A stretch of 64,000 nt of DNA from Pseudisothecium myosuroides (lineage: Eukaryota > Streptophyta > Bryopsida > Hypnales > Lembophyllaceae): the NCBI GenBank assembly GCA_951799445.1, contig OX637288.1, forward strand, positions 6,884,501 to 6,948,500, given 5' to 3'. Position 1 is the stretch's first letter, and each line of letters opens with the position of its first letter. The translations under genes were made by a program, and so were the position numbers. Of this stretch, positions 15,241 to 40,869 are shown in pieces. The notes beneath the pieces were generated by a model. It had not been told where the DNA came from and made no database searches. It saw nothing but the letters and a program-made list of their open reading frames with translations.

Positions 15241-15346
15241 CAACAAATAAAATTTAGAGTTAATATTAAGAAGTTAAATTTTAAAGTTAATTTTTGAAGT
15301 TAAAATTTAGAGTTTGAAGTTAAACTTTAGAGTGAAATTTAGAAGG
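15241..15346. repeat. Left remnant of the TTTAGAGTTAAA minisatellite (insertion site)
   Basis: Short degenerate repeats of the type TTTAGAGTTAAA / AGAAGTTAAA run up to the AAGG at 15343-15346, directly next to the giant element. The same degenerate repeat continues at 40870-41745 on the other side, which shows that the element split one tract. Confidence 0.8.
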
Positions 15347-15370
15347 ATGCCATATTTAACTACTTCTGGA
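15347..15370 (+). repeat. Left terminal inverted repeat of the giant element
   Basis: 24 bp, identical to the reverse complement of 40846-40869. Immediately inside, TACTTCTGGAC (15361-15371) and GTCCAGAAGTA (15380-15390) form a perfect hairpin with an 8-base loop. Confidence 0.92.
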
Positions 15371-15429
15371 CTTTCAATAGTCCAGAAGTAAAGAGGCGGT
15401 GAAATCCCCTGATGTTTTTCTATGGATCT

Positions 15430-16790
15430 GGAGATCTCCTGAAATAGGAACGCTTTGCATGCATCCAATTCAGCACCCACAAGTATGTCGGGGAGTGCTT
15501 CATGTGCTTGGAAATGAAAGAAATCGTGTAGTTGTAACATAGCGGATCCGTGGTAGAGTTCACATGATTGTATTGGGAGATCTGTGGACCGGGTTTCCGT
15601 AGTTTAGGCATCCAATTTACAGCACAACTGAAGTCTCAGAACCTATCGAGAGATCCCCCGATGACCACCAGTTGTTGCAAACATGGCCCCCATCCCATAT
15701 TAATCCCTCAGTGAGCGCTGATCTTCACATAATTCTATCGGGAGATCCCCTGACGGGGGTGTAGAATATGAGTCGGCTTCACTGACAATCTTGGTGTCGA
15801 AGTGGGGTACAATTTGATTTTTGTGCTAAAGTGCAAGTGATATCCGAGTTCATCAAGAATGATTCACAATAAGGCACGAGGGGGGCGATTCTTTCAAAGA
15901 TATATGGTATCCCGAGAGTTCAAAGGAAGTACACACAAGTGGATTTGAAATTCAAACATCAGTTGACAATTACCAAATGAGCAATTGCTCTTGGGAATAA
16001 GGAGTCCGGTTCTAGGATTCACCGGGAGATCTCCCGACGGACTGCTAACATAGTGGAGCTAAGGTAGTCAGGATATGACGAAGTGACAGGGCCATATCAC
16101 AGTAACTTACTCACAGTGACATTTGAAGAACTGTAGACCACTGAGTCACAGGTGCTCAGACGTTCAACATACATCTGAAGATGTATAACGGCTAAGTAAA
16201 CATAATATTCCATCCAAAATAATGACAGTAGTTTCAGTTTGTGAAAGAACATCAAGGTTCTTTCACTGCAAAAAATAGTAAAATTCGTACTTAGTTGAAT
16301 GTCTGCTATATAATTGTGAAGATGCAAAACCTAGAAGACTAGAATTCCAACAGTGTAACTGCGAGAGAAAAGAAATGCATTATTCAGACTCATTTGAGTG
16401 CATGTGTGACCCGAGCAATGTATTCTGTTCCGGACACAAACATAAACCACTTCCATTTCAGGAGACGAGAGGAAGAAAGAGATCCCGCGCTTCTGCTATC
16501 AAGTCGTTGCCCCCGTGCCGCACGCAAAGAATAGAAATCATAAACATATTAATATATTCATACAGATTTATTTTACATATACAAGTCACAAAAAGTAGCT
16601 CTGAAAAACTAATCGAAGAACAGTCCTACTGACTCAACGGACTATACTTCGAAACCCCCACTTGCGGTTGCGCTTACTGGATGTAGAATGCGTCGTGCGA
16701 TATCACGATGGCAGTCGCACCCCGCAGAATGCATCGTGACATCTCACGATTGCCGCGACGACCGACACAGTGCGTCGGGAGTTCCCACGA
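15430..16790. repeat. Left subterminal cluster of the 16-bp palindrome (7 copies)
   Basis: Copies at 15430-15439 (core GGAGATCTCC only), 15646 (TCGAGAGATCCCCCGA), 15738 (TCGGGAGATCCCCTGA), 16022 (CCGGGAGATCTCCCGA), 16693 (TCGTGCGATATCACGA), 16734 (TCGTGACATCTCACGA) and 16775 (TCGGGAGTTCCCACGA). They lie between the left end and the stop codon of the DUF7869-type gene. Further weak matches lie near 15543 and 15574. The rest of 15391-16821 shows no coding sequence. Confidence 0.85.
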
Positions 16791-16821
16791 TGGCAGTAGC
16801 GACCCCGGACTAGGCACTCAA

Positions 16822-19800
16822 TCATGGGTCCACCACGTTTGCCCGATTCAAATTCACTAAGGCAGCCTCCCTACTCTTCTGAGGAATCGTCCGTGATTTT
16901 TGATCCACTCTCCTGGACCAATTCGCATACACTGCAGCACCCGCGTCCACCCAGGTGGGGGGACTTTTTTCAACGACCCATTTACCGTACCAGCAATTCC
17001 GATAAAGCAATTCCAGACTCGTTTCGGAGTTATCGGGTCGCCAGTACTGAAGCAAGAACTTCCCGTTATTCACATCTCCTTCCACTCTGCATACAGTAGA
17101 CAATGCTCTTCCCTGCCAAACAGCACATGATTCCGGGACTTCCGGTCTGACAAGTACCCAACAGCCTGGTCGTATGTCTAGCCATGGATTAAAGCTTTCC
17201 CTTGGCGCTTCATTTGCAGGGCCGCAGTAAGGCTCCGGCTCCTCTTCTTCCTCCGGAATCACGTCCATGGGATTCACCGTCGATCCTGGGCGAGGGACTC
17301 CATTACGCGCCACCCTCCAATCGTGTTGTGGCCAGAAGCCTTCCACCAACTCCGGAGGACACTCGGGTAATGGTTCCTTCAGCTCATCGAGAACACACTT
17401 CCAGTAATCCACGTATGGACCGAACGCAGTTGCAAATCCTTCGCATCTAGAAATACCGTATTGCCAGTACTGAATGTATTTCTCGAGTCCTACCAGCATG
17501 AAACCCTTGTTCAAGGTAGCTTTCCGCGCCGCTTCCCTTGCCTTCTCTTGATTTCCATGCGGTATCGGAACCTCGCTGCCCCACATGGGCTTAAACGGAA
17601 CAGGCTTAGGACAGCCGTGAGGGAGCATGGGCCGACCATTGCTGTCTGTCTTCCAAATGCGTTCAGAAGGTTTCTTCGACGGCAACCAGTTCGAATCAAC
17701 TGCTGACCTTTTGAAGTTCATGACGGGGACCCCGTCAGTGTCCACGTAGAACTTGAACAGGTGCATCTCCCCCAATCCAATTAATTTTTCCCCGCGATCG
17801 CATTGGTAACCCTCCACGAACGACTTGAAATCCCCCACCTCCTGTATGAACTCCGGCATAAATGACAGTTCTTGGGACTGCATGAAGGCTTTCATGAGGT
17901 CAGCAACGACAAAAGTGTTCTTGGTCTTCAGGGCCTTGGAAAGGTGGCTGAAATATGCATCGATGTCCTCGTGAGTGTGTCCGACTAGTAGAAACCCAAC
18001 CTGAATTTCCTTGAAGACACCTCGTGCAGTGAGCAAGGATAAGAACGCCATCAGATATTTGTTCTTGTTATCCTTGGCAGAGTTGTCAAGCTGAAGATAT
18101 AAATTTTCAGGAAGAGGGGTACTTCCAACCCGAGCTCCAGGTTCGGTGAGGGTTAGGCTGTCCATACATCTAGACTTTCCTCTAAGCAGTGCCTCGAACA
18201 ATGAGTTAGCCGGTGGATATGGAAAGAGGTCGCCTGCCTCTCGAATAGGTGGACCCTCCAGCCGGCGCAACAACCTCGCCAAAGACGAAATGGTGAAGTT
18301 GGAGTCCGCCGGCCAGCAAGATGGAGCATAATGGGCGTAAGCACCGTCACCATGGCCATGAGCTACCATTCCAGTAACGCTCATCGGAAGCTGCCCCAGA
18401 CCGGCCGTGGCCTTCGTTGTCACCCGGAGTCTGGGTAGAGCTGTCTTGGATGTATCCATCTTGTCGTGAATTATACATAAAATTCTTCGAGGATCTCGTT
18501 TGGATTCCTCACGCCAAGACGCATACAAACGACGGCAAGAAGCTTGGTGATTCAGATGATGAGTCCGCTGCTTCACGAACTCCACGTACTCGGGGCTTCC
18601 TTTCGGAGACTTCAGAATAAACTGCTGTAGGTCGTCGCACGTAGTACATTTTGCAAACGAACTTCCGACAGGCTTAATGGAGACGTTGTTGAAGTTCTCC
18701 CGCTTGAGTCTACTAATAGTCGACTGGCTCACGGGCGGCAGACCGTAGTCGGCATTCAACTGCACATCCAGAATCGGTACGCTTAAGCATCGATACGAGC
18801 GAAGGTGAAGGAATGCAAATGACAAGCAATGCACCAGAACAGTGATCGTGATATCTCACGATCATTGATCTCGTCGGGAGATCTCACGATCAATAAAGCA
18901 GTGACAGGAGATAAGGGGCACTACCTCGTTGGCGTCTGCTCGGACTCGTTTCCAATTTCTTCCGGGAGGAAGGAATTTTAGAGTGTCCGTTCTTCCGTTC
19001 CCGATGCCGCGCATTTGGTGGGGCATTTGATCCGCATTCTCGTCAATAATGGCTTTCATAGTCCCAGCGACCTGAACAGTCCGAGCCCGCGGGCGCTTAA
19101 CCCCTGTGTTTCCGTGCGTCCCTGATACGACGCCGTCGTTGTACATCTCGATGTAACTGTGGTAAGTGGACTTCGGGATGCCGTGAATTATGTGCCACGC
19201 CTTGCCACAAACATCAACTCCCTCTAGCGTGACGTATTTCCGCTTCCGCTCCCCGTACCTTTCGTGTAGTTGTCCTCCCACTCCAATCCCATATTCACGG
19301 CGCTCGTCAAACGACTTCAAGTAGTACTTCTGCCTTACTAACAGCGTGAACTCCTGGTTATAATGCTGACAACACAGACGTCTGCAGCACTTCTCCGAGC
19401 TGACTTTCCGAATCTCCTCGTCTGCCGTTTTGCGGGAGTACTGCGATTCCTTCAGTTCCAGATTGGGTTTGCGAACTATAAACCGATATGGTGCTTTCAT
19501 TTTACCTCCAAGGTAAGCGAGAGGGTCGTCCATATCGGGAATGGCGGCAAAATGATCCACTGTCTCCTTCAACGAACGACCGTTGGGAAACCAGCACTCC
19601 GAAATTGGCCACCTGTCGTGAGACATTATGGCTTCGGTGTCACCCACAAAAACATCGAGGACTGTCACACCTAGGAAACCTTCACCAAGTGTCTCTTCTT
19701 GGAAATGATCCTCCGGACTCCAGCAAATGATACGACCCGAGGAAACGAGGAGTCCGTCGGCGTCCTTCCGATGCACATCAAGTCCAAACCAGGCTCCTTG

Positions 19801-20205
19801 ACGAATATACGGACATGGATCCATCGGGGGATCCCCCGACGCTCTAACAACGTCGGCGGCTCTCCACAACACTACATTCTCTTGAACATCCTCTAATGTG
19901 TTCATACCCCTCTGACAAGGAAAGCATTTCAAATCCTGGAATTCTAATTTGACAGAATGAGGTCGCACCAGAATGTAAATCCAAGGCTCAACAGGTATGG
20001 GCACACCCAGCCACTGGCCCTGGGGACGAACCTCTTTAACGATTCCTGATCCAACTTCACCGAATCCAGGCACAAACAGCTTAACCCAATCACCATTCAC
20101 AAACGCTTCACATCCACCGGTGGAATCCTGTGATTCACCCTCTACATGCGTTCCGTCCACATACGGAACTATCGCGTCAGCAGCAGACTCACAGAATGAA
20201 TCCAT
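16822..20205 (-). CDS. DUF7869-type RNase H/DDE-like protein, probable transposase (2 exons)
   Basis: Exon 1 runs 20205-18925 and exon 2 18759-16822; with a 165-bp intron they give 1,072 codons plus stop. Residues 36-120 resemble a small chromatin-reader-like or beta-rich region. A Cys cluster CCRRLCC lies near 273-279, and VCGKAWHIIHGIPKSTY (332-348) is a helix-turn-helix-like segment typical of this family. The core shows IIHDKMDTSK (D526/D529), LYLQLDNSAKDNKNK (D652) and VGHTHEDIDAYFS (E691/D692/D694), the spacing expected for an RNase H-fold triad. Residues about 959-1022 form another beta-rich region (WVLVRP, then WYGKWV). No internal stops. An in-frame palindrome encodes SGDPP at 123-127, and two more lie in the intron. 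The intron acceptor is the least certain point. DUF7869 proteins are widespread in mosses and animals with no proven activity; a transposase role is inferred from the core and the element around it. Confidence 0.82.
18846..18889. repeat. Two palindromes in the intron of the DUF7869-type gene
   Basis: TCGTGATATCTCACGA at 18846-18861 and TCGGGAGATCTCACGA at 18874-18889. They occupy the middle of a 165-bp intron. Confidence 0.9.
19824..19839. repeat. Perfect palindrome inside exon 1 of the DUF7869-type gene
   Basis: TCGGGGGATCCCCCGA is a perfect 16-bp palindrome read as Ser-Gly-Asp-Pro-Pro in the coding strand. The ParB-like gene on the opposite strand reads its exonic copies in the same frame. 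Confidence 0.9.
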
Positions 20206-20366
20206 TGTCAGAGTGAGCTTTATCGAATCCTGTGGACGAGATTAAAACGATCCGTAAAACCTGTACATCATACATTCAAGGAGTTAGGCATGTCTACAGA
20301 AGAGCGCTGCATTCATGGCATTGTAACCTCACGACATGAAGGACAGAAGCATCAACGTCTGTACAG

Positions 20367-21045
20367 TCGTGGGAACTCACGATCACACGGCAACGCAACA
20401 TGAACAAGTGAATCTAGTTACTGTCAACAAGAAGTTCGAAAGCCCAGACGCGATAGTGCGATCTCAAGAAGGCCGTCCCAGAACCACTGGGAAGAAGCCA
20501 AGGCATCCAGGAAAACGTCGCAGAAGTTTAGAAGACATTAACCAAAGAACGTTCAGTACATCGTGGGATCCCACGACACTGATGGCGCTTAATCACTTAA
20601 ACCAGAGATTGCGGTATTCCAAGATCCTCCTAAGGGATCACATAGACCGCTACAGAAATATAAATGAAGTACTGGGTCAAACTGAATCACTCTGATGAGT
20701 CCCCGACATATTATCAATCAATCGTGGGATCCCACGAGTTCGGTATCCTGTAAAATCCGGAAGAGTGTTTGTGAACCCCCCCAAGTAGGAGAACCTGGTG
20801 CCAACCGGAAATGTGATCGTGAGATCCCACGATGCTTATACAAGATCGACGAGGAGTATGACGGTCATCGAAAAGTAAGGCACCTAGACGTACACCAGGA
20901 AGGCCACAGCCAAGGTTCAATCGATCGTGGGATCCCACGACGAAATGATAGAACATCCCTCGACTACCAGACCGCGATATCTCTATACTCGAAGACTGAG
21001 AGGTCTCGCCCACGCTCAATAAGCGGAGATCGTGGGATCCCACGA
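20367..21045. repeat. Palindrome cluster upstream of the DUF7869-type gene (6 copies)
   Basis: Copies start at 20367, 20561, 20722, 20817, 20925 and 21030. Those at 20561, 20722, 20925 and 21030 are the exact form TCGTGGGATCCCACGA. They are spaced about 95-195 bp, within the first 850 bp before the start codon, where a promoter should be. Open frames across this stretch are by-products of the repeats. Confidence 0.9.
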
Positions 21046-21107
21046 TGCTTACGTATGTTGGATATATACACGTATTCTACTGTCGTAGACTAACGTATCT
21101 ACAGATG

Positions 21108-21340
21108 ATCGTGAAATTAGGTTTCCTGTCACTGGTTTCATGACATTCGACACTCTATAACTATTCTCAGTTACTGTACAAAAATTCTCTACTTTTAAAG
21201 TGGATTTTGTTGTAATTCAGACTCCTGAACCTCCATGGGTACAATAAGAAACGTTCTTAGAAGTAGTTGAATTTGATGGCTGGGTTTTCCTCATGTAAGT
21301 TCGCCTAATTCCTAGCGCAACCTAATTTCACTACTTTGTG
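21108..21340. mobile_element. Family A MITE copy 3 (inside the giant element)
   Basis: Starts CGTGAAATTAGGTTT and ends CAACCTAATTTCACTACTTTG, with the internal words TTTTGTTGTAATT and CCTCCATGGGTACA shared with copy 1. The ends are mutated relative to copy 1, so this is an older copy. Confidence 0.7.
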
Positions 21341-22380
21341 AAGACGTTCTGACCGGTTGTCATCCACATACAAGGTTCTCATATCAACTTGCCCTCAGGG
21401 CAGTGCCGTCCCGCGATTCAAAAGGAACCTCGGTGTCACCACAGCATGGTGATCCCTTAAGCACGTGAGTTTTTCGCAAAATGAGTACAATGCGCGAAGA
21501 AAATTATCGCAGACTCCGTTTCACTTTCAATCTACGACATCCTCAGTTTGTGACAGAGTGCAGTGGCGTCAATTCGACTACAAAATCCTCGACATTGGGA
21601 ATCGCATAACACTTGCAAGGGATGCATTCTTACCTTGCAGCAACTGGCTCGGTCAGAACTTCGTGCGCCTCCACGCCCACTCTGTCGCCAACGCCGGCAG
21701 ACACCCACTCGCCACTCCGCAGCCTGCTCCGCCTGTTCACGTGTGCAGACAAAAAGAGCAAGCTCTAGGTTCTTTTCGGGTTATGAACCAGGTGGCTGGT
21801 TCGAATTCTTCAGCTCTGAATTCCCGCCGCGAATTTTGAAATCACCAAGCGATCCTTGATTTCGAATGTTGGATGCGTTCTTCAATGTCGTGCCACAATC
21901 AACAACGGCCTGGGGGTACGTGCGGTCCTTCACTTCGGAAGTTGATTGCATTCTCGAATTCCGCGCATCTCTGACTACAAGGAGGGAGGGCGTGAGGCTC
22001 TTGACTTTCTGACTGGAACTTCGCAAATCCAGGCTTCACTGAAATTCCGATTCTTCGCTGACATTTTGAAATTCGCCGCATTCAAGGATGGTATCGTTGC
22101 ACCATTTTCTAGGAGTCAATGATGCTTTGACCAAAGCGGATCAAACTCTGAAGACTTTCACTTGACAGAATGTCACACGCTTCCCCGATCAATACTCGGA
22201 ATTCTTCCCCTACACGACCTGATTATACGTATCCTACAGAAACGAACTGTACCAAATCTCGTGAACCCAAAAGCTTGAGCACCTGAAACATGTGGAACAC
22301 CTCACTTACAAAAAGAATCAACAAAAAGTTTGAACTCCCGAATGTTCATATTTGTTATTTTCTATTCCAATGAATGCAAT
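21341..22380. other. Unassigned stretch within the giant element
   Basis: Richer in G+C than its surroundings up to about 22100, with overlapping open frames on both strands (for example 21465-21839 plus, 21781-22081 minus), but none matches a family I know. Possibly a captured or decayed gene fragment. Confidence 0.4.
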
Positions 22381-22605
22381 CTTAGGGTCTAGGGTCCACA
22401 GTCATAGGGTCTACAGTCCACGGTCATAGGGTTTAGGGTACATGTTGTAGTGTATTGTTCACGGTTTCAAGGTCATGGTTCTTGGTTTCAGGGTTCAGGG
22501 TTTCAGGGTTTAATAGGGTTTAGGGTATACAGTGGCAGCGCTTTACATTAACGTTTTCAGGGTCTGCAGTTCATGGTTTACGGCTTTTAGGGTTTAGGGT
22601 ATTAT
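22381..22605. repeat. Degenerate telomere-like (TTTAGGG-type) repeats
   Basis: Many variants of TTTAGGG, AGGGTTTAGGG, TTCAGGGTTTCAGGG and CATAGGGTCTA occur within about 220 bp, about 0.7 kb before the satellite. Related words (CCCTAAACCCTAAACC) appear at 23448-23462, at the edge of the array. Confidence 0.75.
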
Positions 22606-22862
22606 GAAAAATGAAAATGACGCTGATTATTTGTTTCCAATTTTTTCCTCAATTAAGTTTACGTCATCTCAGACTGGGAACATATAAACTTAAAATTCAA
22701 TCTAACTCAATATTGCTAATTAAAAATGTCAGTTAACAGATTGATTTCATATATAATTCTTGTTATGTAGTACAACATCCTATGGTTTAATATGGGACTT
22801 TACGGATTAAACAATGATTGACACAATTTTTATTTCATCTACGAATTTTTAAATAAAGCACC

Positions 22863-23015
22863 AGGGGCTTTTTTGCGTTTCCCTCTCTCATTTTTTCCTG
22901 CGTAAACGGCAATCCATGACTTCTCGTTGTGTCACAATCCGTTGACACAATGAAAAGTCATAAGATTGTTGTTTACATAGGGGAAAGTGAGAGAGGGAAA
23001 CGCAAAAAAGCCCCT
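22863..23015. mobile_element. 153-bp near-perfect hairpin element
   Basis: Left arm AGGGGCTTTTTTGCGTTTCC..CTCTCTCA pairs with the right arm GTGAGAGAGGGAAACGC..AAAAAAGCCCCT. An inner part, ATGACTTCTCGTTGTGTCA with TGACACAATGAAAAGTCAT, also pairs. The whole unit can fold on itself. No clear target duplication. It may be a foldback MITE or a hairpin-RNA source. Confidence 0.75.
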
Positions 23016-23329
23016 TGTGAAGGACTTTGGATGTGCAATCATGATGGAACAAAGAACAAACTAAACCATTTATTTATTTTGTATTTTAAATCTCAGTCTG
23101 AATGATTTAATGAGTTAAATGCTTTCAAATTTGTTAATGCACTTTGACGGGTGATGAATGCTTAAACCTGGAATCATGTCATTCATGAGAATATTGTAGG
23201 TCATGCAATCTTCCTCTGGATTTTTGAAATGATCGAACGTGGTATACATCTACATCATTATTTGACAACGATGTACGTAATATTGTTATTTGTTATTGTT
23301 ATTTGAACAATCTCCACCGATGTGAAACA

Positions 23330-26300
23330 AAAAATCGGGAATGAAATGCATGATGGCTTGAAACGGCTTAAATCATATTTAAAAAGTCATGAAATTTCAT
23401 ACATGCATGCATAAAATTTGATTTAGAAAAATGTAATTGCTCCAACCCTAAACCCTAAACCACTATTTTCTAGTCTTGCCCGTTGAAAAATTCTATTTCA
23501 CATGAAAATAAAAAAATTGGGAATGAAACGGGCCCTGCCATTGAACTATGGCTTCATTTTAAAAATGTCATGGAATTTCACACGTGCATGCATAAAATTC
23601 TACTATGAAAGTTGGAATTGCTCTCAGGATTTAGATTCCACCACTATATTCACTTCTTGCCCCTTGCAAAATTCTAATTCACGTGAAGAAAAAAAAATTG
23701 GGAATGAAACGGTTAGGCCCTGCCATGGAATGGCTTCATTTTAAAAACGTCATGGATGGTTCATACATGCATGCATAAAATTCTATCGTGGAAGTTGGAA
23801 TTGCTCTCAGGATTTAGATTCCACCACTATTTTTACTTCTTGCCCGTTGAAAAATCCATCTTAACGTGAATTAAAATAAATGGGGAATAAAAATATTGGG
23901 CCCTGCCATGAAATGGCTTCATTTTAAAAATGTCATGGATGGTTCATACATGCATGCATAAAATTCTATCGTGGAAGTTGGAATTGCTCTTAGGATTTAG
24001 ATTCCACCACTATAATTATTCGCTTCTTGCCCATTGCAAAATTCTAATTCACGTGAAGTAAAAAAAATTGGGAATGAAACGGGCCCTCCCATGGAATGGC
24101 TTCATTTTAAAAATGTCATGGATGGTTCATACATGCATGCATAAAATTCTATCGTGGAAGTTGGAATTGCTCTCAGGATTTAGATTCCACCACTATTTTT
24201 ACTTCTTGCCCGTTGAAAAATCCATCTTAACGTGAATTAAAATAAATGGGGAATAAAAATATTGGGCCCTGCCATGAAATGGCTTCATTTTGAAAATGTC
24301 ATGGATGGTTCATACATGCATGCATAAAATTCTATTGTGGAAGTTGGAATTGCTCTTAGGATTTAGATTCCACCACTATAATTATTCACTTCTTGCCCAT
24401 TGCAAAATTCTAATTCACGTGAAGTAAAAAAAATTGGGAATGAAACGGGCCCTCCCATGGAATGGCTTCATTTTAAAAATGTCATGGATGGTTCATACAT
24501 GCATGCATAAAATTCTATCGTAGAAGTTGGAATTGCTCTCAGGATTTAGATTCCACCACTATTTTTACTTCTTGCCCGTTGAAAAATCCATCTTAACGTG
24601 AATTAAAATAAATGGGGAATAAAAATATTGGGCCCTGCCATGAAATGGCTTCATTTTGAAAATGTCATGGATGGTTCATACATGCATGCATAAAATTCTA
24701 TCGTGGAAGTTGGAATTGCTCTTAGGATTTAGATTCCACCACTATAATTATTCACTTCTTGCCCATTGCAAAATTCTAATTCACGTGAAGTAAAAAAAAT
24801 TGGGAATGAAACGGGCCCTCCCATGGAATGGCTTCATTTTAAAAATGTCATGGATGGTTCATACATGCATGCATAAAATTCTATCGTGGAAGTTGGAATT
24901 GCTCTCAGGATTTAGATTCCACCACTATTTTTACTTCTTGCCCGTTGAAAAATCCATCTTAACGTGAATTAAAATAAATGGGGAATAAAAATATTGGGCC
25001 CTGCCATGAAATGGCTTCATTTTGAAAATGTCATGGATGGTTCATACATGCATGCATAAAATTCTATTGTGGAAGTTGGAATTGCTCTTAGGATTTAGAT
25101 TCCACCACTATAATTATTCACTTCTTGCCCATTGCAAAATTCTAATTCACGTGAAGTAAAAAAAATTGGGAATGAAACGGGCCCTCCCATGGAATGGCTT
25201 CATTTTAAAAATGTCATGGATGGTTCATACATGCATGCATAAAATTCTATTGTGGAAGTTGGAATTGCTCTCAGGATTTAGATTCCACCACTATTTTTAC
25301 TTCTTGCCCGTTGAAAAATCCATCTTAACGTGAATTAAAATAAATGGGGAATAAAAATATTGGGCCCTGCCATGAAATGGCTTCATTTTGAAAATGTCAT
25401 GGATGGTTCATACATGCATGCATAAAATTCTATTGTGGAAGTTGGAATTGCTCTTAGGATTTAGATTCCACCACTATAATTATTCACTTCTTGCCCATTG
25501 CAAAATTCTAATTCACGTGAAGTAAAAAAAATTGGGAATGAAACGGGCCCTCCCATGGAATGGCTTCATTTTAAAAATGTCATGGATGGTTCATACATGC
25601 ATGCATAAAATTCTATCGTGGAAGTTGGAATTGCTCTCAGGATTTAGATTCCACCACTATTTTTACTTCTTGCCCGTTGAAAAATCCATCTTAACGTGAA
25701 TTAAAATAAATGGGGAATAAAAATATTGGGCCCTGCCATGAAATGGCTTCATTTTGAAAATGTCATGGATGGTTCATACATGCATGCATAAAATTCTATT
25801 GTGGAAGTTGGAATTGCTCTTAGGATTTAGATTCCACCACTATAATTATTCACTTCTTGCCCATTGCAAAATTCTAATTCACGTGAAGTAAAAAAAATTG
25901 GGAATGAAACGGGCCCTCCCATGGAATGGCTTCATTTTAAAAATGTCATGGATGGTTCATACATGCATGCATAAAATTCTATCGTGGAAGTTGGAATTGC
26001 TCTCAGGATTTAGATTCCACCACTATTTTTACTTCTTGCCCGTTGAAAAATCCATCTTAACGTGAATTAAAATAAATGGGGAATAAAAATATTGGGCCCT
26101 GCCATGAAATGGCTTCATTTTGAAAATGTCATGGATGGTTCATACATGCATGCATAAAATTCTATTGTGGAAGTTGGAATTGCTCTTAGGATTTAGATTC
26201 CACCACTATAATTATTCACTTCTTGCCCATTGCAAAATTCTAATTCACGTGAAGTAAAAAAAATTGGGAATGAAACGGGCCCTCCCATGGAATGGCTTCA

Positions 26301-28895: not shown

Positions 28896-28901
28896 CAGTG
28901 C

Positions 28902-30086: not shown

Positions 30087-30090
30087 TTAA

Positions 30091-30330
30091 AATAGTATAA
30101 CTAGGTTGCCTTATTTCAACAAAGTTACTTTACAAGCCATCAAAGTAAATAAACGTTTCTACAATTATTTTTATTTGTAGACATGGAGTTTCGAGAGTTC
30201 CAATAGCAACAATACTTAAATAACAAATAGTGCATTCTTATAGAGAAACAAAAAAAAAGTATGTGGTAATTATCGAATGTCACGAAATTAGTGAGGTGCA
30301 AGTGTGCGACCTAATTTCAGCATTTTGTGT
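30091..30330. mobile_element. Family A MITE copy 4 (inside the giant element)
   Basis: Begins AATAGTATAACTAGGTTGCC and ends CCTAATTTCAGCATTTTGTGT, with TTACAAGCCATCAAAGT and ACATGGAG inside, the reverse orientation of copy 1. Diverged. Confidence 0.65.
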
Positions 30331-30387
30331 AATGAGTGATTATTTAGCTTAAGACTTCTATTCAAGCCCTCCTCATGATGTCAGTAA

Positions 30388-31637
30388 TCATGAGGAGGGT
30401 GGGCAGTCATGACCTCCGCCGTCTTGCACCTGACAGCACCACGTCAGCAGACTCCCCCGCCGATTTCCTCTCCTCCTGGTCTCCTTTCCTCCCCACGACG
30501 TCTGCTTGCCACCCTTTTCTCCCGACGTCGTGTGCTTCTCCGTCTTCCTGATTTCATGCGCTTCTCCGCTTTCCTTCCTCGCGATTTCATTCTGGTTGTT
30601 GCAGTCCGTTAGTTTGGTTGTCTGAAGCTTGGCATTTGGAGTGAGTTGGGTTGTGTGGAGTTTCTTTGGTTGGCGGGGCGTTGAACTTCTGTTTGCGGAG
30701 TCGAGTGCGGCGAGGGACATTAGAGGAGCGTATAATTCAAATTTTGCTGGCGGAGTGTGTGTGCGCGGAGAACGAATTTTTGTGGCGGAGTGCGGTAGTG
30801 CGTGAAGCATTTCCTGGCAAAGGCGGTGCGCAAGCGTCCGGACCTGTGCGCGAGAAAAACAACACGGTGCTGGACTTCACCCACCTCATTGAACAGGTTA
30901 GTTCATTGTAGTCCAACCTCAAAACCTACATTTTGATTTTGTAGTTCTCTGGCGGTGAGGTTCATTATTTGACTTCTTTGTTGTAGAATTGTGATCGCAT
31001 GGAGGTGTGCGTTTGCTCTGGAGTTTAGCTTCTAGGCTTGGAAAGAATTGATCCCATTCAAGCTTGTCAAATGAATCTAGTACATGGATACAATGGCTGT
31101 ATGGCACTCGCCCTCCTTGCAGGTGTAGGCTCTCCTCACGCATTGTAGTTCACGGTTCATCACTGTAGACCCTAGAATGGTAACCTGGATGTTATTCACG
31201 AACTAGAGTTCAATGTGTATGGACTGCTGTGAGTGTTTGAATTGAAGCAAAGTGAAGTAAGGAATGGGAATGTTGCTCCCAAAGAGGAATGGAGCGAAGA
31301 GTTCATTGTATATTATTTAGTTAGACAGTACTCGTTTGTGAATGATATTAGGAACATGGTTTGTGCAGGGATTTTATGACTATGATCAGACACGCTTGTT
31401 TTCTGTGCGATAGGCTACTTAGTCCGTCGCTTTAGAATGATTTAAGTTTACCTTCTCTTCAATTAAATTCACTTCGCTAGTCATGAAGAAACAAGTTAAG
31501 AGTTTGTGATTCTCAGTGAATGATTGAAGCTACAATTTCTTCTGCATTTGAATTTCATGCCACAGTCTTTCGAAGAGCGGAAGGGCATTTCTGTAGTAGC
31601 TGAAAACAAGGCCGGACCCGTGCAAGCGGAAGCTACG
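30388..31637 (+). promoter_or_regulatory. Promoter and probable non-coding leader exons of the ParB-like/NIF gene
   Basis: A G+C-richer stretch at about 30400-30900 ends in a consensus donor (GAACAG|gttagt at 30898/30899). A good acceptor (CCACAG) ends at 31565, with an open frame across the junction but no ATG in the first exon. I therefore read 30.4-30.9 kb as a leader exon and 31566-31637 as leader in front of the ATG. The intron between holds nothing recognisable. Confidence 0.45.
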
Positions 31638-34600
31638 ATGGCAGCAGCTCCATCCCAGCGTACAGCAGACCTCCCAGTTTGGAAGGACCCGTAAGTTACT
31701 TTGAACTATATTCTCATTACTTTCCGTTTCTTGCTTGCAATGTCTACGTTATAAACAATACCAATAATTAGGGTATGGCTGTTTGCAATTGCATTGGTAC
31801 GCACTCTGCTGAAAACGAGGGTAGTAGAGCCTCTGTCATAGTCGCTGTTATAAACATGGCCGAGAAATACGGTAGTACATATGCCGAGAAGAACACACGG
31901 TAATGAGTACGTGACTCTGTTACCACGGATAGTGACCCTAAAACCGTGCATCGTGGGATCCCACGACAGGGCAGTCCCTGTGTAGATTCGAGCATCGTAG
32001 GATCCCTGACTTGAAACCCTAGCCGCCCACCACTGCGCGTCCACACGAGTTTTAGGGTTTGTGGCCCATCGTGGGATCCCCCGATGATAAGATGTGAAGA
32101 CGCAATCTAAACCCAGACCACAGGTTAGGCACAGACCAGGCAATGGATTAGTAACCCATCGTGGGATCCCCCGATGGAGGATAGTAAGGACCGCGTCTGA
32201 CCCAGACTTAACAATTAGAAGGCCACCTACATAGAGCATTCAAGTACTAAACCGTCGTGGGAAATCACGACGAGAGAGTCTAGCGTGGGTAGAGAAATTG
32301 AGATGCAGGCAGGTTAACAAATAGCGTTGATTATGTGAACAATCAATCGTGGGATCCCACGACAGACAGTAGTTTCACAGATCATCACCAATCACCTTCT
32401 AAGATATTCCAATATCCATTCTATGTTATTTGGTGCCGTCGTCATATGCCGGGACGCCTTCAGTTAGTGAGTTGAGATGCAGTAACCACCTGCCCACTAC
32501 TGTCCGTGAATGTAACCGATCGTGATATCCCACGACAACGGTAATTTGTGAAACCAGATCATCAAAATCATCACGAAACCATTCCTTCGCTTTCATAACA
32601 TCCGTCGTGGGATCCCACGACTAAGGATAAAAATTAAAGTTAGAACGAGAATAATATCGCACCACCATCTGCTCTATCGGACAATGTAGAAACTAACATC
32701 TCTTTCTACCATGCTGCAGTGCAATGCAAGTCGACGAAGGTCCAGAAGAACTGACACCAAGGAAGCTTGGTACCTTCATCGACTGCTACATTACGTCTTT
32801 GGAGTACACAGGTCCACATCCACTACAAGCCTTTTTCCGATGCGACGAGCAGATTACGCATTGGGGAATCGCCTGGAAAGCAGAGAGTGACGGCTCCGCC
32901 ACTATTCTTCCCACGCTGGTGAATGGGACAATGGGGCATCCAACTGCCGGACTGAAGGTACTAGAAATGAAGGGGCTTGACGACGACACAGCGCTCCTAG
33001 TTGTAGAGGAGAAGGTTCCCCTTTCCGGGGAGATCATAACGTTTGGGCTGATCCTTGACTACGCGAAGTTCAGCCTCACTCTTTGCGAGTCTGTGACTGC
33101 AAGATCACATCTGATGTGCAAGGACACGTCTAAGCCTCGGTGGAAGCCTAAGGAGCTGAAGAACCAGTGGGACATAATCCTGGAAGACTTAAGAGATACA
33201 AACGCTCCCCCGCAAGCCGTGACAGCGGTTGCTCCCACGCCGTCCCCCAAAAAGAAGACCAGGAAGAGGAAGTCTGCAGTTGGAGCTCCCGGGGACGAAG
33301 TTGAAGCCGCAGCTGGGACATCCGGAAAGAAGAAAAAATCGGATACCCCGCTTCCGCTTCACAGGGCTGTGGCTCTAGGGGAGGCAGACGTGAAGAAGAT
33401 GACACCGGAAGAGATGAATAAGATGAGGACCCTGTACGAGAACTCTTTTGGTGGCCTGTACAAATGGGGCAGGAAAGCAGTCTGTGACAGCAAAGGAGAG
33501 CTCATCCGCGTGCACTACGACTATCTCCACCAGGCACCTGTAGCACTGCTCGTGTACAGGGGAATTCAGGCAGAGCGGCTTGATTCGCTGACGAGGAAGG
33601 CACGAATCACACCTGATTATGACTCGGAGAACAGAGTCATAACAGTGCTTCCCCTTAAAGCGGGACCTTACGGCCCGGCGAAGGTAGTGTCGTACTATGA
33701 GAAGCAAGCGCCGAAAAAGGAGATCTTTGAAAACCCCAAGACGCACTACTACATAATAGGGGGCCAACACACTGTCCAGGCATTCAAGGACCTGATTAGG
33801 CTTGGTGTGATTCCCGAGAAGGACAAGAAGCTCGCCTCCACCTTCAATATTTTACCTGTGTGGACGGACAAAGATCACCACGGAGACCTAGTGCACTTCT
33901 CACGGGCGCTGAACCAAGATGTCGTCGGCAAACAGAAGGAGCAGAACTTCACGAAGCAGCTGCTGAACGCAAGAATCAAGTGGCGGAGTATGGGAAGTCC
34001 ACAGCCAGCAATATTGGGCAGATCGCACTCAGTAGAGTACAATGTAAGAATGCTGCTAGAGTTGACATATTTTTTTGGGGGGGTCATCAGAGTGCGCTCT
34101 ACCTGACCATCGTGGGATCTCCCGATGGTCCTGCACTACATCTCAGACCTTCATTACGCTAGAACCTCGTCATCGTGGTATCCCACGACTAAGTCCTGGA
34201 TTTGCGATAAGGGGTAGTTCTACGTTAGAGTGCAGCCATCGTGATATCCCACGACTTTAACATGTGAAATACTAGATAGCGCTAGTTTAGTTTTTTGTGC
34301 TGGCGGTTCAGTGCGTGGTGTTTTCAAATTGTGCATGTAGAAGATAGTGGCTCATCGTGATATCTCACGACTGCCTGTTGCCTAAACGACTTCCTCGTGG
34401 TAACTGACTGATCGTGGGATCGCACGACTGTTTATTGGACTTCTTGTGTTCACGTGGTCTGTCTACGGATCGCGTACTGACTGTTACTCCTTTGTTGGGC
34501 AGGCGTTTCAGCCGTCGGTGGCAACAATATTTGCGGGAGCAAAGGCGAAAGACATCGCCGAACTGAGAATCCCTCTACTCTTCCTGGAGAACGACGCTGA

Positions 34601-37600
34601 TGTTGAGAGATGGATCAAGATAGAGGAGAGATTCATGGCAGGTCTCCTTCCCGACGCGGCGGGGCTGGTCGATGTATCGGGGAGTACGGATCGCAAACCG
34701 TTGGCGGCAAACGACTTCAAGCCCCTTTACGGACTTAGACCGGAGGACATCAATTTCCTTGCCGATCAAGTCGAAGCCCAGGTTATTAGCATGAAGACCT
34801 CCGTCGCAAAGTCGAAATCACAGAGAGGTGGAAAACGCATCATCTCTCTTGCAGACGCCGGCGCCAAAATTCGGTTGGTCAGGGCGATGAAGAACGAACT
34901 CTTGTCACACTACAAGGGTCATCTGCTGCCGGCGAGGAGGGTGGAGTACGAGCCTTACCCGGACTCTTTGTGGGTCGAGTTTGCGACGGAAAGGAACATT
35001 CAGCACGAGGATGTGGAGATGTGGGTCAACAAGGCAATGGAAACCCCTGCTGGAAAGAAGTGGTTGCAGGATCGGACGAAAAATCTCAACAGGACGTTCG
35101 ACCCAGCTGACCTTCCGCAGTCGGTGATCCAAATGTGGGAGTCGTACTTCAAGCTGACGGCGGAGGAAGAATCGGTGCAGGCAAATGCACGTGGTTTTTC
35201 AGAGCACTATCTCTGTAAAACCATGGAGGAAAGCAGCTGGGACATCAGCGCCACCTTGGCGGCAGGGGACGTCATAGCGTGGAGGGGAAAGAAGAAGCAG
35301 CACCTCTACATCTGGTTCATGTTCGAGTCAACGTCCTGCGGGTGTCGCGCCAAAATTCTTGAAGAGCGGAAGTTGAAGAGACTCTTTGACGCTCTGGAGT
35401 ACTATGATCCGCAGGACCAGACAATCGTAGCCCGCTCTGCCGCCGTTCTCCTCACAGATGCCGAAGGGTTCCACATGATTGTGGCTCACATAGAGAAACG
35501 AAGGATGGAAGTGAAAGCTAGGTTGTGGGACTGGCACGTTGTGAACTACATGGCAGGGCCCGAAGACTTCTTCCCTCAAGCTCCGGCCGGAGACGGGTAC
35601 AATGTCTTTGTTGTCTTCATTTTTGGGCACAGCAAAGAGCACGAGCGGCGGACTTGCTTCAAAAGCTTCTTCCCGGGATTGGACCGCCTGACTCAGGTGT
35701 ACAAGGCGGAAGATATGCCGGACGACTACCCTTACTGGCGTCGGCAGCAGATGCCGTATCTGAAGATCAGCAGTGCGTTGATTCTATTCGAAGGACTAGC
35801 TTGCAGCGACTATGTCTTTGTGAATGTCAACGGGGGTCCGGAGTTCACATATCTGGGCTTGGTATGCACTACAACGATTGTCTTTTCTTTTGTTCTTTTG
35901 ATAATCTCATTTCGATTTCGGGGATTTGAATGTCACTAATTTCCGGTTGTTGTGTTTCAGTATTTGGAAGGTGGTAAAGTGCTGGAAGTTGTCGATTCAG
36001 CGGAAGCGAAGACGTTAAGTCAGGTCTTCGCCAAGCAGATTTGAGACGACAAACATGCGCAGGCGGCACCCCTTCCTCTTCCGGAGGCCGGACACGAGGA
36101 CGAGGAAGTTGAGAGTGATGATGACGATGCTGTACTCGAAGACATCACCCAACACAGACCGGGTTCAGGAACAAGGTCGGTTGAGCACCCTAAGGTTAGT
36201 GTGCATTATTTGCTGAACCATCGTGATATCTCCGGACGTTGGGCAGCGTATATCTCTCGCATGCTAATCTGGGAGGGCAAACTGAGCTCAATTGTGGTGG
36301 GATATTGCCTTTCTCGCAGGCGAAATCTCCGACTCCCTCCCCCCGGCGAGAGCAGCTGATGGATGCGCCAAGTGGAGCAGAGGATGCAGACGATGTTCCC
36401 GAAGTTCATTCGGCGCAGGCGGAGCTGGCAGATCTGGCAGAGGAGCATGAGAGTACTCCAGAGCCGTCACCAGCTGAACGAATTGTAATTCCAATATCCA
36501 GCGGGTCGTCAGGCGAAGTGAATTCAGGTGTCCAATTAACGGACCCAAGGATATCCAAGAGGAAGCCGCTTAAGACGCCGGTCAAGGAACCCGACACCGC
36601 AATGGATACTGGGAGCACAAAGGCGGCCAAGCGAGCGCGGAAGACAGCACTCGAGAATCGGAAGGGGGGGTCCTCCAAGTGGACTCCAAGTAAGTCGTTG
36701 GTGCAGCGCAAACAGTCGCTAGCGAAGCTGACTGGGAGTCCCAATCCCGAAGCATCAGTCGTGGCAGAAGCGCTTCTGACTTGTGCCTTGGGACCGTTAC
36801 CATCGAGGCCTGTGAAGTCGACTCAGCCGCAACAGGAGGATGCGCAGGCATCTCGTGCTTCAGGAGCTGACAGACAGCTTCCGGACCTCGACTTATTAAC
36901 CCTGGAAGACACTCACCGACCAGCATCGGGGGATCCCACGATGACGAACGAGTCACTGGTCAAGAGCGGGGAGGATGCTGCCGACCTCAGCGAGGGGAGG
37001 AATGAGTCGAAGGGGGATGATGACCACCTCGGATCGGGGGATCCCACGACGGGCCATGCATTACCTGTGGAGACTGTGTTAGCTGTCTCTCGACGTGGTG
37101 CAGGGAGGGATGACCAAGGCCGAACACCGGGACCTGAAGGATCGGGGGATCCCATGATCGTTGAAGAGTCAGTGGTCTCAATTCATCATGGCGATCCGGC
37201 AGAGAGCGAGGGGGGTGAACATCAGGAAGGAGTGGTTGCATTGTCTTCGTCGGGGGATCCCACGACTGTGCGAGAGCGATTGCTCCCGCCGATGGGCATC
37301 ACGGTTGCTGTACTGAACGACACCCTTGTTGACTTGGTCCCCCTGAGTCCCAAACCTGTTCCTGGAAGGAAGAGTAAACCTGTCATAGGGCGGGCGAGGA
37401 TTGTCGACATTGCTTCACTGGCCTCCAGTGTTCCACTGGAGGTTGCAGGAGAGGTGGTTCCTGATGACGGTGAGTGCCATTCTGACGAAGTGCTAGAGGC
37501 CATACCTTACGAGGCCGAAGAAATAATGAAGTTCTGTCTTGTTGATTGTATGAGAGCATTTGGTCATTTACCGAGTCTAAACCACTATGGGAAGAAGCGT

Positions 37601-38742
37601 CTCGATAACAACAAGGATATTCATTTGGAATCCGTAAGGCGAGCGAACCGTTTCCTTTACAAGCCCGTCTTTAAATGGATATTTCAGGATGGTCCGCGTG
37701 CAGTGTATGATGGAGGGGATCCACCTGATGCAGACGAAGAGTGGGAGGCATTGGAAGGCGGCGTTAGAGGGAGGAGGGTGGTGGTGGCTTCGAGCGACGA
37801 CGACCTTGAGCCGGGATCTTTCAGTGGTGACCAGGGGGAAAGAGGACCAGTGAGCGCCGACGAGAGAGGAAAGGGGCAAATGCTCGTCGAGAGGAGAGGG
37901 GAAGGATCAGTGAGCGGTGGCGAGAGGGAAAGAGGACGATTGGGCGACGAAAGGAGGGCGGAAGGGTCGCCAGCTTGTAGCGTCCGAGCTCCCGCAGGTA
38001 ACATGCCTACATTATTGTCAATGTACATTCGAGATAACGAATCTTGAATTGGCCGGTCACTGACTCTGTGCTTCTCTTGTATTCTGCAGTTTTTCGAGTG
38101 CCTGCTGAACCGGTGGCGAAGTCGTCGAATCAGGTAGAAAAGCGGCGGTATTATGTGGTCTTCGACCTTAATGGAGTTCTTGTTCACAGGTCATTCAATG
38201 ATTTGAACAGACGCGTCGTAACACTTCGACCGAATGTTGGTCATTTACTTGACTTTGTGCACAGACATGCAAACATTGCATTCTGGAGCAGTATGACACC
38301 GGCAAATTTGACGAAGGTATTGAATCAAATGCTGCCGGGGACGTCTGTTAAGGCGAAGGACGTGCCTGTTCTCACGCAGGAAGATTGCACAAAGTCGTCC
38401 TACAGAGACCCCAATCACCCGGATAGGCCCTTCTTCCTCAAGGATCTAAATCATTTCGCCACTAAGCTGGGTTTGAGGTCAACCGAGAATGTTCTCCTCG
38501 TTGATGACGATCCACTTAAGAACCTCCTGAATGATTGTCATAGCGCCATTTTCCCCCACAAATTTGATGGGGACTGGAGGGACCAGTACCTTGTGGGGGT
38601 GCTCAGTCCTTGGCTCGGAGGTCTGTTTAAGTCACAGGAAGTTGTGCCGGCGTATGTCAAGAAGCATCCGCTCCACAATGGTCTGCCACCGGCGGTCCCG
38701 TTGACCAGACCGGGCTCTGACATTTTGAGGGCAGTAGTTTAG
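31638..38742 (+). CDS. Very long ParB/Srx-like plus FCP1/NIF-phosphatase gene with one in-frame stop
   Basis: Exons 31638-31690, 32720-34043, 34503-35861, 35961-36194, 36320-37997 and 38090-38742 join in frame with GT..AG junctions to 1,767 codons including the final stop. The start ACGATGGCA has a favourable context. Residues about 190-202 are a basic NLS-like stretch (PSPKKKTRKRK). HYYIIGGQHTVQAF (about 360-373), preceded by YRGIQAERLDSL, resembles the ParB/Srx (DGQHR-like) fold. The second large exon is unrecognised. Exon 5 is acidic and has TGA at 36042-36044 (codon 940), after which the frame stays open. Exon 6 is low-complexity, with a 36-residue repeat beginning SGDPT. Exon 7 is a NIF/FCP1 HAD domain: FDLNGVLVHR near 1574-1583 and LLVDDDPLKN near 1685-1694. 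Either the gene is a fresh pseudogene or it makes a 939-residue ParB-like protein, with the NIF part expressed otherwise. Confidence 0.8.
31951..32620. repeat. Palindrome cluster in the first coding intron of the ParB-like gene (8 copies)
   Basis: Copies start at 31951, 31995 (weak), 32069, 32159, 32255, 32347, 32520 and 32605. Exact TCGTGGGATCCCACGA occurs at 31951, 32347 and 32605. All lie in the intron 31691-32719. Open frames over this region on the minus strand are repeat by-products. Confidence 0.92.
34110..34427. repeat. Palindrome cluster in the second coding intron (5 copies)
   Basis: Copies start at 34110 (TCGTGGGATCTCCCGA), 34183, 34239, 34355 (TCGTGATATCTCACGA) and 34412. They fill much of the intron 34044-34502. 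Confidence 0.92.
36221..36236. repeat. Single palindrome in a short intron of the ParB-like gene
   Basis: TCGTGATATCTCCGGA within the intron 36195-36319; imperfect on the right arm. Confidence 0.75.
36926..37263 (+). repeat. Four in-frame palindromes in an exon, about 108 bp apart
   Basis: Copies at 36926, 37034, 37142 and 37248, type TCGGGGGATCCCACGA (the third has CATGA). Each is read as Ser-Gly-Asp-Pro, giving a repeat of about 36 residues. The sequence between copies is not conserved; only the palindrome is. Confidence 0.9.
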
Positions 38743-39906
38743 TTTTGGTTTCTCTTCCTTGACGGACTTCATCGTGATATCTCACGATCTCCTTTTGGCG
38801 TACATATTATTGCTTGTAGCTTAAAACTCTTGAACATACTGTAAATATTGTAAATGCATTTTCGAAATACTGGACATTCTTTGTTTGTAGGAGGCATTGA
38901 TTCTGCCTCGTAGTAAATGTGAAAATAAATTTTTTTCCTAAATGCCTTTGATTAAGATAATTATGAGTTTGAAGGGATCACCTCGACCTTGACTATTAAT
39001 CCGCGTGCATGCACATCTAGAGATCTAATGGTATACCGTGGAAGTGGATTCTATCGGTAGATCGGACTGTTCTGGGCATTTATCCTTGTCTTTTAAATCT
39101 AATGTGAATGCATTTCCGGAGCATGACCCTCACTTAGAATTGTTTTCTTACTCTTGGTTTGCAGCTTTAATCTAAATTTGGTTCTGAAATTGTTTATCAT
39201 ATTACTCGGAAGAGTGGAATTTTTTGAACACTTCACTAGATTTTAACACTGGGCGTCATCATCTTGCGCGGCAAGCTTCATCAGGAGATCGCACGATACA
39301 ACGTGACGTGTGAACTTTGAAATGTTGTTTCCGTCCTTGTATTGTCTTGTGTTTTTGTACTTGTGGATGACAGTGAAGTTGTAGTTGTGCTTCTACTGTT
39401 TGTTTGGGAGTTCTCCTGCAGTTCCGGTTTGCTGAAGTACGGATTTGAAATTGATAATTTTGTCCTCTGTCTTCGGCTTGATCGGAAGATCTCACGATCA
39501 TTTTCCCTTGCATCGAATTATTAGTCTTAGGCGGATTATGTAATGTCCATTTTTGTTGCTTCAATCGAATGCAATTGAATTTCTGCTGCGTAACTTCCTT
39601 TGCTTGAGTATTTTCGGTCTTCTAGTATGTCACCCTAAACCTTTTTTTGTATTTGACGCGAATTCTAAATCTGCATCCCTTGTTAGTGCTGTATTCTGGG
39701 CTGCAGTGACACCGTAGAAGTATTGCTAATTTCCTTGCACTATGCAGCAAATAAGACATTCAGTCGCTGTTCTTCAAATAACTACCCATGCGTATTTTCA
39801 ATTAGCGGTTCTGTTGTATTGCATATTGGTCGGGGGATCTCACGATCAATTGACGTCGTTTCTGTATGTACATGTCTGCGTACTGAGGCTTACTTGGTCT
39901 TTGCAG
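38743..39906. other. Region between the two NIF-like genes, with palindromes
   Basis: Contains palindromes at 38772 (TCGTGATATCTCACGA), 39281, 39482 and 39830. Its start should be the 3' UTR of the long gene. No clear exon is seen, though leader exons of the second NIF-like gene may lie here. Confidence 0.5.
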
Positions 39907-40389
39907 AAGGCGATGCTCTTAGTACTAACAGGGGATCTCTGCGTGAAGGGCGGTGTGGCGGATCTCCCACAGAATATCGAAATTCGGCCCGGCTTCCGTG
40001 GTCTTCTCCGACATTTCGTTCATGAAACTCACTGTGGTTTGTGGTCCGCAATGCAACCTTCAACACTGGCCGCTCTTCTTCGACGTATTCTACCGCCGGA
40101 AATTCTGTCAAGGTTTCTATTTTTTGCCGGGTCTGACAATCCACGGAAGAACCAGGTGTATCCCCATCGTCGTGCAATACTGAAGACTGTCTTGAACATT
40201 CCTCGGACGCGCAGGGTACTCTTGAATAACAGTGTTGTAATGCTTGTTCTAGATCCTCTTTATGGGGAACGTCCGCACTTGCTTCGACCGGCGTTGCATG
40301 TGAGGGATGATGTAGGTCCTGTAGAGTTAGATCGTCCGCACATTATAGCACCGCCTTTTGATTGGTCTTGGGCCCCAAAAAACATGTAG
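39907..40389 (+). pseudogene. Second NIF/FCP1-like domain copy, catalytic residues lost
   Basis: Follows a consensus acceptor (TCTTTGCAG ending at 39906), with an ATG at 39913. It aligns by eye to the NIF domain of the preceding gene: IEIRPGFRGLLRHFVHET matches its TLRPNVGHLLDFVHRH, and GLWSAMQPSTLAALLRRILP matches AFWSSMTPANLTKVLNQMLP. The DLNGV catalytic motif is replaced by LVLTGDLCV, and the VDDDPLKN motif by NNSVVMLVLDPL. It therefore cannot be an active HAD phosphatase. It ends APKNM and TAG. It could be a decayed duplicate, or a pseudophosphatase that is still expressed; the open frame favours some constraint. Confidence 0.65.
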
Positions 40390-40845
40390 TTGGAAGTGGA
40401 CTAGCTGGGTTATATATCACCTGTTTGTTGCATCCAAATGATTATATAAGTGGCGAATCCACCTTTTCTATCTGACTGTGATTACACCTTACCAAATGTC
40501 TGTAATTGCATTATGTTGCTTCATCCATTCTTTTGTGTTATGTGATACTTTGGGAAGTATCTTCTGAGCTCTCCCGATCTGTGATGTCGCATATTAATGC
40601 AACCCCGGATACAAATGTACCGCTTACAGCAAATGTCGGAGTTGACATCATCTCAAATTCATTGATTTGTTCGAACACTCTATCCCGAAGGAGTATATTT
40701 CCTTGCACCGGGAAATCTCCAGACCACTTAGCATCCCAAAGCGATTTAAATCTCCTTTGAACGGCATTACGGACTCATTGTACATACCATCGGGAAGATC
40801 TCCCGATGGACAGGACCTTCACAAAGTCCAGAATTCCCCGTAAAT
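40390..40845. other. Right subterminal region of the giant element
   Basis: Non-coding. Holds one palindrome close to the right end (40790-40806, TCGGGAAGATCTCCCGA) and the words TCCAGAATT and TTCCAG, which echo the terminal repeat. Confidence 0.6.
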
Positions 40846-40869
40846 TCCAGAAGTAGTTAAATATGGCAT
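40846..40869 (-). repeat. Right terminal inverted repeat of the giant element
   Basis: 24 bp, the exact reverse complement of 15347-15370, followed by AAGG (40870-40873) and then host minisatellite. Confidence 0.92.

Follow-up and report, generated by a model that had tools for sequence, protein, structure and literature searches.

A 16-bp palindrome recurs in many copies in a 25,523-bp DNA transposon of the moss Pseudisothecium myosuroides and probably serves as a family-specific binding site for a dimeric protein that the element itself encodes. The transposon lies in a stretch of 64,000 nucleotides (hereafter the window; contig OX637288.1 of assembly GCA_951799445.1, forward-strand positions 6,884,501 to 6,948,500) and carries two divergent genes, one for a protein with a DUF7869 domain and one, called gene 2 here, for a protein with a predicted ParB-like N-terminus. 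We give a probability of about 0.6 to the reading that the binding protein is element-encoded, most likely the N-terminal part of the DUF7869 protein, and that it is used both in transposition and in the control or protection of the two promoters. The putative binder, the N-terminal part of a presumed DUF7869 transposase, would attach to the palindrome as a dimer, and the bound dimer would tag the full element, as well as the miniatures derived from it, for transposition. On the arrays upstream of the two genes, and in introns and exons, the dimer would regulate the genes or keep them from host silencing. The role in transposition is proposed because of the miniature copies and that in promoter control or anti-silencing because of the arrays.

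Palindromes confined to one transposon family

Within the window there are 28 matches to the strict pattern TCGNNNNATNNNNCGA (starts 15646 to 39830, last end 39845). All 28 sites lie inside the transposon and none between 21100 and 31900, and first-order Markov sequence yielded a mean of 0.38 sites and a maximum of 3 in 100 simulations. With the degenerate consensus TCGKGRKATMYCMCGA, which was derived from the same window sites that it then scored, we found 37 sites with at least 14 of the 16 positions matching and 42 with at least 13, again all within the element and none in its satellite part; eight simulated sequences gave no site at the former threshold and a mean of 2.5 (maximum 4) at the latter. 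An earlier, sequence-only reading of the window had counted about 39 copies, found them only in the giant element (15347–40869) and noted their absence from the internal satellite region at 21.1–31.9 kb, and these searches bear it out on all three points.

We also carried out searches of the whole genome (388 Mb). The exact consensus TCGTGGGATCCCACGA was present at 905 places and its reversed control at none, whereas the strict pattern was present at 5193 places and its reversed control at 2661, so that about half of the genome-wide strict matches are background. Every one of the 50 exact places listed among the 905 falls in a copy or miniature derivative of the window family: 29 belong to four copies designated a–d and 12 to two others that alignment verified, 2 are in damaged copies and 7 in miniature elements. 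At the places listed, the palindrome marks other copies of the element, a possibility that the earlier reading had raised. Of the 50 distinct strict places met first on contig C1, which reach to 6.33 Mb, 29 fall in a single copy of the element, 21 kb long, and the other 21 are scattered; among the scattered places, one has both half-sites fitting the element rule and another (6022581) is a single change from TCGTGGGATCCCACGA. Four full copies carry 28, 29, 27 and 26 strict sites. DNA from outside the element, sampled over 154,775 bp, of which 121,775 bp were flanks and 33,000 bp were drawn at random from C1, contains none.

The palindromes are also more constant than the DNA around them. In an alignment of five copies, variable columns made up 8 of 344 motif columns as against 963 of 13,196 others at non-CpG positions (Fisher one-sided p 5e-5), and 8 of 120 as against 260 of 1,583 at CpG positions (p 0.0017); within a CpG class, motif columns hence vary 2.5 to 3 times less from copy to copy than the rest, in a comparison that somewhat favours the motif in that sites were defined on the majority base. 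In the coding exon that bears four palindromes in 108-bp units, the motif is 97% identical between units of the window copy and the 92 other bases are 33% identical, and the corresponding values for copies a, b and d are 100/32, 97/32 and 92.5/36%. In four copies, 13 of the 17 exon units agree in all 16 bases and hence in their choice among synonymous codons. In copy d one unit has leucine in place of proline, accompanied by a synonymous substitution on the opposite arm, and its symmetry still extends to 7 of 8 pairs. The shared synonymous codons, the symmetric change in copy d and the diverged flanks point to selection on these exonic palindromes as DNA rather than as peptide.

Each half-site is close to (A/G)TCG(T/G)G(A/G)(G/T)A. 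The sequence-only reading had inferred a protein dimer from the impression that both arms change together, but this coupling did not withstand permutation: the arms agreed at 85 of 112 free positions as against 79.3 by permutation (p 0.06), at 44 of 64 as against 42.3 for distinct cores (p 0.33), and with a p of 0.10 for pooled loci. It appears that both arms follow a single half-site rule and that the symmetry results mainly from this, as would be expected for two identical subunits. The proposal of dimer sites thus loses the argument from arm coupling, while the confinement, the low variation, the miniature copies and the palindromes of other families all speak for it.

The positions of the sites are given in Table 1. 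The left end, the introns and the stretch preceding the DUF7869 gene are rich in them, as had been described, but the right end is not: its last kilobase contains decayed copies only. Sites in coding exons (19824; 36926–37250) and the array upstream of gene 2 (31951–32605) had gone unremarked. An analysis of site spacing for helical phasing gave nothing convincing (one of nine periods, 11 bp, had a p of 0.012, uncorrected).

Seven of nine isolated exact places proved to lie in miniature elements of 202–517 bp, whose left ends resemble that of the big element at 37–40 of 48 bases and whose right ends do so at 33–36 of 48, with a few motif-like units between. Clear 4-bp duplications were present at six of these seven loci. 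The miniature elements, a sample chosen by the motif itself, suggest that mobility may need the ends plus the palindrome. One of them (L022, 4703–5219) is nested in another of the same family, and each of the two has its own 4-bp duplication (TGTT inside GTAC).

Proteins and palindromes in other DUF7869 families

A genome search for DUF7869 gave 153 matches that fall into several size groups (150 of 1,224 candidates were scored), and we read the upstream DNA in five groups other than that of the window: L041/L046, L042, L043, L044 and L045. L041 and L046, which are one family with a 1000-amino-acid frame, have 6–8 copies of TTATCTTCGNNNCGAAGATAA upstream of the DUF7869 gene. L044 (969 amino acids) has 17–19 copies with TTATCTTCGNNNCGAAGATAA arms, a different centre and a spacing of 54 bp, L045 (980 amino acids) has four to five upstream copies of TTTAACTCGNNNCGAGTTAAA, and L042 (634 amino acids) has 12 tandem units with GGTTCAGAGYGGYCACCCTGAACC, upstream being judged by strand in this case. 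No palindrome array was found upstream of the DUF7869 gene in L043 (1072 amino acids). When a uniform rule was applied, the largest palindrome family had 5 members in L041, 8 in L042, 1 in L043, 10 in L044, 2 in L045 and 6 in L046, as against at most 2 in 24 controls. A tolerant rule gave 6, 9, 1, 15, 4 and 6 in the same order; twelve controls reached 1, eleven reached 2 and a single one reached 3. The controls were random or flanking DNA rather than regions upstream of other transposons. With the window included, five of six DUF7869 families have an upstream palindrome array (four of six by the first rule alone).

The N-terminal parts of the L041 and L044 proteins are 65% identical, and their palindromes have the same arms. 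L045, which is 51–53% identical to L041 and L044 over 90–105 residues, has a palindrome of the same length and with the same TCGNNNCGA core but with other outer arms. L042 and the window protein, at 26–32% and 26–31% N-terminal identity to the others, respectively, go with unrelated palindromes, and L043, which lacks an array, is 22% identical to the window protein. To judge from these sequences, protein and palindrome go together, related proteins having related palindromes and distant proteins unrelated ones.

The L041 palindrome TTATCTTCGNNNCGAAGATAA is found at 248 places in the genome and its control at none. Among 50 listed places, 43 have a listed DUF7869 match no more than 20 kb away and 45 have one no more than 30 kb away, whereas the 20-kb count in 5,000 rotations was 0.66 on average and 19 at most; five of the 15 clusters that the listed places form are isolated singles without a listed DUF7869 neighbour. 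At several loci (contig C1 near 6.70 and 46.48 Mb, C2 near 43.39 Mb and C3 near 10.95 Mb), the DUF7869 domain is preceded by one group of TTATCTTCGNNNCGAAGATAA at a distance of about 2–3 kb and by another at about 10 kb or more, a layout that resembles the two promoters of the window element. Palindrome spacings of 54 bp (L044), 105–106 bp (L041/L046) and exactly 108 bp (window, 36926–37250) recur across families.

The element and its two genes

Table 1. Features of the transposon, in window positions
Feature	Position	Strand	Remarks
Whole transposon	15347..40869		25,523 bp; the two 24-bp terminal inverted repeats are identical; they and the 4-bp duplication (AAGG) were recognised by eye
Target duplication AAGG	15343-15346 and 40870-40873		flanks both transposon ends
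Left terminal inverted repeat	15347..15370	+	ATGCCATATTTAACTACTTCTGGA
Right terminal inverted repeat	40846..40869	-
Left-end palindromes	15427..16790		strict 15646, 16693, 16734; looser 15427, 15738, 16022, 16775
DUF7869 gene	16822..20241	-	open frames 18862-20241, then 16822-18855; intron between inferred
Two palindromes, inferred DUF7869 intron	18846..18889		starts 18846, 18874
Palindrome within DUF7869 open frame	19824..19839		TCGGGGGATCCCCCGA; identical in 5/5 aligned copies
Array upstream of DUF7869 gene	20367..21045		five strict and one decayed site, starts 20367-21030
Internal 183/366-bp satellite	23459..28875		palindrome-free; also in four aligned copies a-d
Array upstream of gene 2	31951..32620		six strict sites, starts 31951-32605
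Gene 2	32724..38742	+	five inferred exons; exon limits read from sequence only
Gene 2 exon 1	32724-34043	+	ParB-like domain (predicted)
Five palindromes, inferred first intron of gene 2	34110..34427		starts 34110-34412
Palindrome-bearing exon of gene 2	about 36320-37997	+
Four palindromes in open frame	36926..37265	+	exactly 108 bp apart, starts 36926-37250
Gene 2 C-terminal NIF/HAD phosphatase-like domain	38038-38742	+	Pfam E 1.9e-13
Three strict palindromes 3' of gene 2	38772..39845		starts 38772, 39482, 39830

The terminal repeat ATGCCATATTTAACTACTTCTGGA, with up to three mismatches, is found at 588 places on the plus strand and 560 on the minus strand of the genome, and its control at none. 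Contig C1 holds three full-length copies: a of 21,155 bp, b of 21,506 bp and d of 21,700 bp, flanked by the duplications ACAA, ACCT and AAGG, respectively. The ends of copy c were not found, and the aligned non-satellite parts of all four are 94–99% identical to the window. Target duplications of 4 bp are clear by eye for the window and copies a, b and d, as for the miniature loci counted above, and unclear at locus L021. CACTA (En/Spm) elements have CACTA termini and a 3-bp target duplication; the window element, with its termini ATGCCATATT and its 4-bp duplications, does not fit this description. Nor does it fit that of MULE/VANDAL elements, MULE target duplications being 7–12 bp long (PMC10741241) rather than 4 bp. 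In its 4-bp duplication the family agrees with the Sola superfamily, which has a DDD transposase, is reported from the moss Physcomitrella patens and includes some elements of more than 15 kb (PMC10741241). The likeness lies in duplication, large size and moss occurrence, and a relation of DUF7869 to Sola would be conjectural. The element itself was not met with in the open-licence literature searched.

In the window and in copies a–d the 183/366-bp satellite sits between the two divergent promoters, which makes this a transposon with a built-in satellite. The element is embedded in AT-rich degenerate repeats of the type TTAGAAGTTAAAA (15248–15333 and 40880–41680). Just inside its left end is a small inverted repeat, TCTGGACT...AGTCCAGA (15364–15390), and a similar stretch occurs near one end of the miniature elements. 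Outside the element, at 12495–12956, is a fragment of a PIF1-like helicase (Pfam E 1.8e-26), possibly a Helitron remnant.

The DUF7869 domain (PF25273) scores 151.1 bits in the window and 153.7 bits in the L041 family, as against a cut-off of 26. The protein models as an RNase-H fold like that of transposases; its N-terminal half, conserved in outline and divergent in sequence, contains a stretch that looks by eye like a helix-turn-helix. DUF7869 was not named in any paper of the open-licence literature searched. The N-terminus of gene 2 models as a ParB-like fold, and in this respect the model agrees with ParB proteins. The GERR phosphate-binding motif of ParB is absent, its place being taken by GGQHT, which is nearly invariant among relatives. 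Pfam gave no match to ParB across 21 aligned members of gene 2 and none to a helix-turn-helix, residues 408–469 of the model being of low confidence. Foldseek returned no match at E ≤ 0.001 for either the DUF7869 or the gene-2 model, both fold assignments resting on a second look at the models beyond Foldseek, and a sequence search of solved structures returned no match at E ≤ 1 for either protein. Among the protein relatives listed, the named ones are from Physcomitrium, Ceratodon and Riccia. Viral contigs contained no relatives for the gene-2 alignment, the DUF7869 alignment or the exact motif, in a collection from which records near this genome were possibly excluded.

The window copy of gene 2 has an in-frame stop near 36040, which three of five aligned copies lack. 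A genome search with exon 1 gave 91 scored matches from 439 candidates, 92–100% identical, some open and some with stops. Besides the C-terminal NIF/HAD-like stretch at 38038–38742 there is a second one at 39730–40389, which looks related by eye only. The usual second aspartate of the motif reads N (DLNGVL), so that activity is doubtful.

Candidate readers of the palindrome and known systems

We take the DUF7869 protein as the reader of the palindrome because it is the factor known to be common to the families described above; the main rival is the ParB-like protein of gene 2. That protein would load as a dimer, perhaps as a nucleotide-dependent spreading clamp, as ParB does at parS and KorB at OB. 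The site of KorB is likewise 16 bp long, GERR being the phosphate-binding motif of ParB (PMC11790492), and the predicted N-terminal fold of gene 2 would fit. The host of the palindromes is, however, a eukaryotic transposon, DNA binding by gene 2 is putative, and neither a ParB match, nor GERR, nor a helix-turn-helix was recognised in its product; moreover, the L041 array has no relative of gene 2 in the 8 kb upstream, except for one 42-amino-acid match (E 0.006). We therefore regard gene 2 as a rather unlikely reader. Bolder and still less probable is the idea that the ParB-like protein and its parS-like palindromes form a clamp-and-spread coat on the element, for autoregulation, anti-silencing or copy pairing, with the palindrome evolving family by family; a nuclear element of a eukaryote would then possess a system of sites of the ParB type.

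A reading that overlaps with the one we prefer makes anti-silencing the main role, an element protein at the sites removing or blocking DNA methylation as VANC does for VANDAL elements. By analogy we consider it possible, although on the unlikely side. The layout is like that of VANC21 targets, in which a short motif, present in many copies in non-coding regions and introns, is enriched in one family and has diverged in step with the protein (PMC5735166). Moreover, each half-site contains a CpG, by definition of the pattern, and 8 of the 16 variable motif columns are at CpG. Against it, VANC21 motifs are non-palindromic and arrayed in one orientation, and the Pfam scans of the element, which were not designed to find a VANC relative, gave none. 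That a host protein, activator or silencer, binds palindromes that the element merely carries would agree with their promoter-proximal position. Their near absence outside elements and the different palindromes of different DUF7869 families argue instead for an element-encoded partner, and make a host reader quite improbable. We give the least credence of all to the view that the palindromes are a functionless by-product of tandem duplication and gene conversion. The L042 and L044 arrays are indeed plainly tandem repeats, but the coding exon has kept only 16 bp between flanks that are about a third identical, motif columns vary less than others, and unrelated palindromes are found in several families.

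With an element-encoded dimer, most likely of the DUF7869 protein, as the preferred reading, the nearest precedents for sites of this kind would, by analogy, be those of TNPA in CACTA elements (PMC2613891) and of VANC in VANDAL elements (PMC5735166). The VANC21 motif YAGTATTAY is highly enriched in one family of VANDAL, a group of the MULE superfamily in Arabidopsis, and such motifs differ between related families along with the element protein, as do the palindromes described here. VANDAL elements differ from ours in the asymmetry and single orientation of that motif and in their 7–12 bp duplications. The 20.5-kb CACTA element Tgmt* has repeated motifs that vary between families, act in cis in transposition, are bound by an element protein and have a GC-rich part that is possibly methylation-sensitive (PMC2613891). 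The En/Spm and Tgmt* subterminal repeats with TNPA thus also combine a large plant element with family-variable motifs, whereas our element has ATGCC... termini, a 4-bp duplication and a palindromic motif whose sites stand in promoters, introns and exons far from the ends. In piggyBac and piggyBat, subterminal palindromes are bound by two transposase domains of a dimer (PMC11707139). Those palindromes, too, lie within the transposon, but they are few and near the tips, as compared with about 28–37 sites over two genes here.

Our analysis provides an initial hypothesis for what DUF7869 does and describes a ParB-like domain, as predicted from a model, inside a plant transposon gene. One genome contains a natural series of DUF7869 proteins and matching palindromes, in which the words differ and the layout is shared. 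How a transposon protein and the DNA address that it reads evolve together should thus be directly testable, as has been discussed for VANC and TNPA, but with sites that are symmetric and easily read.

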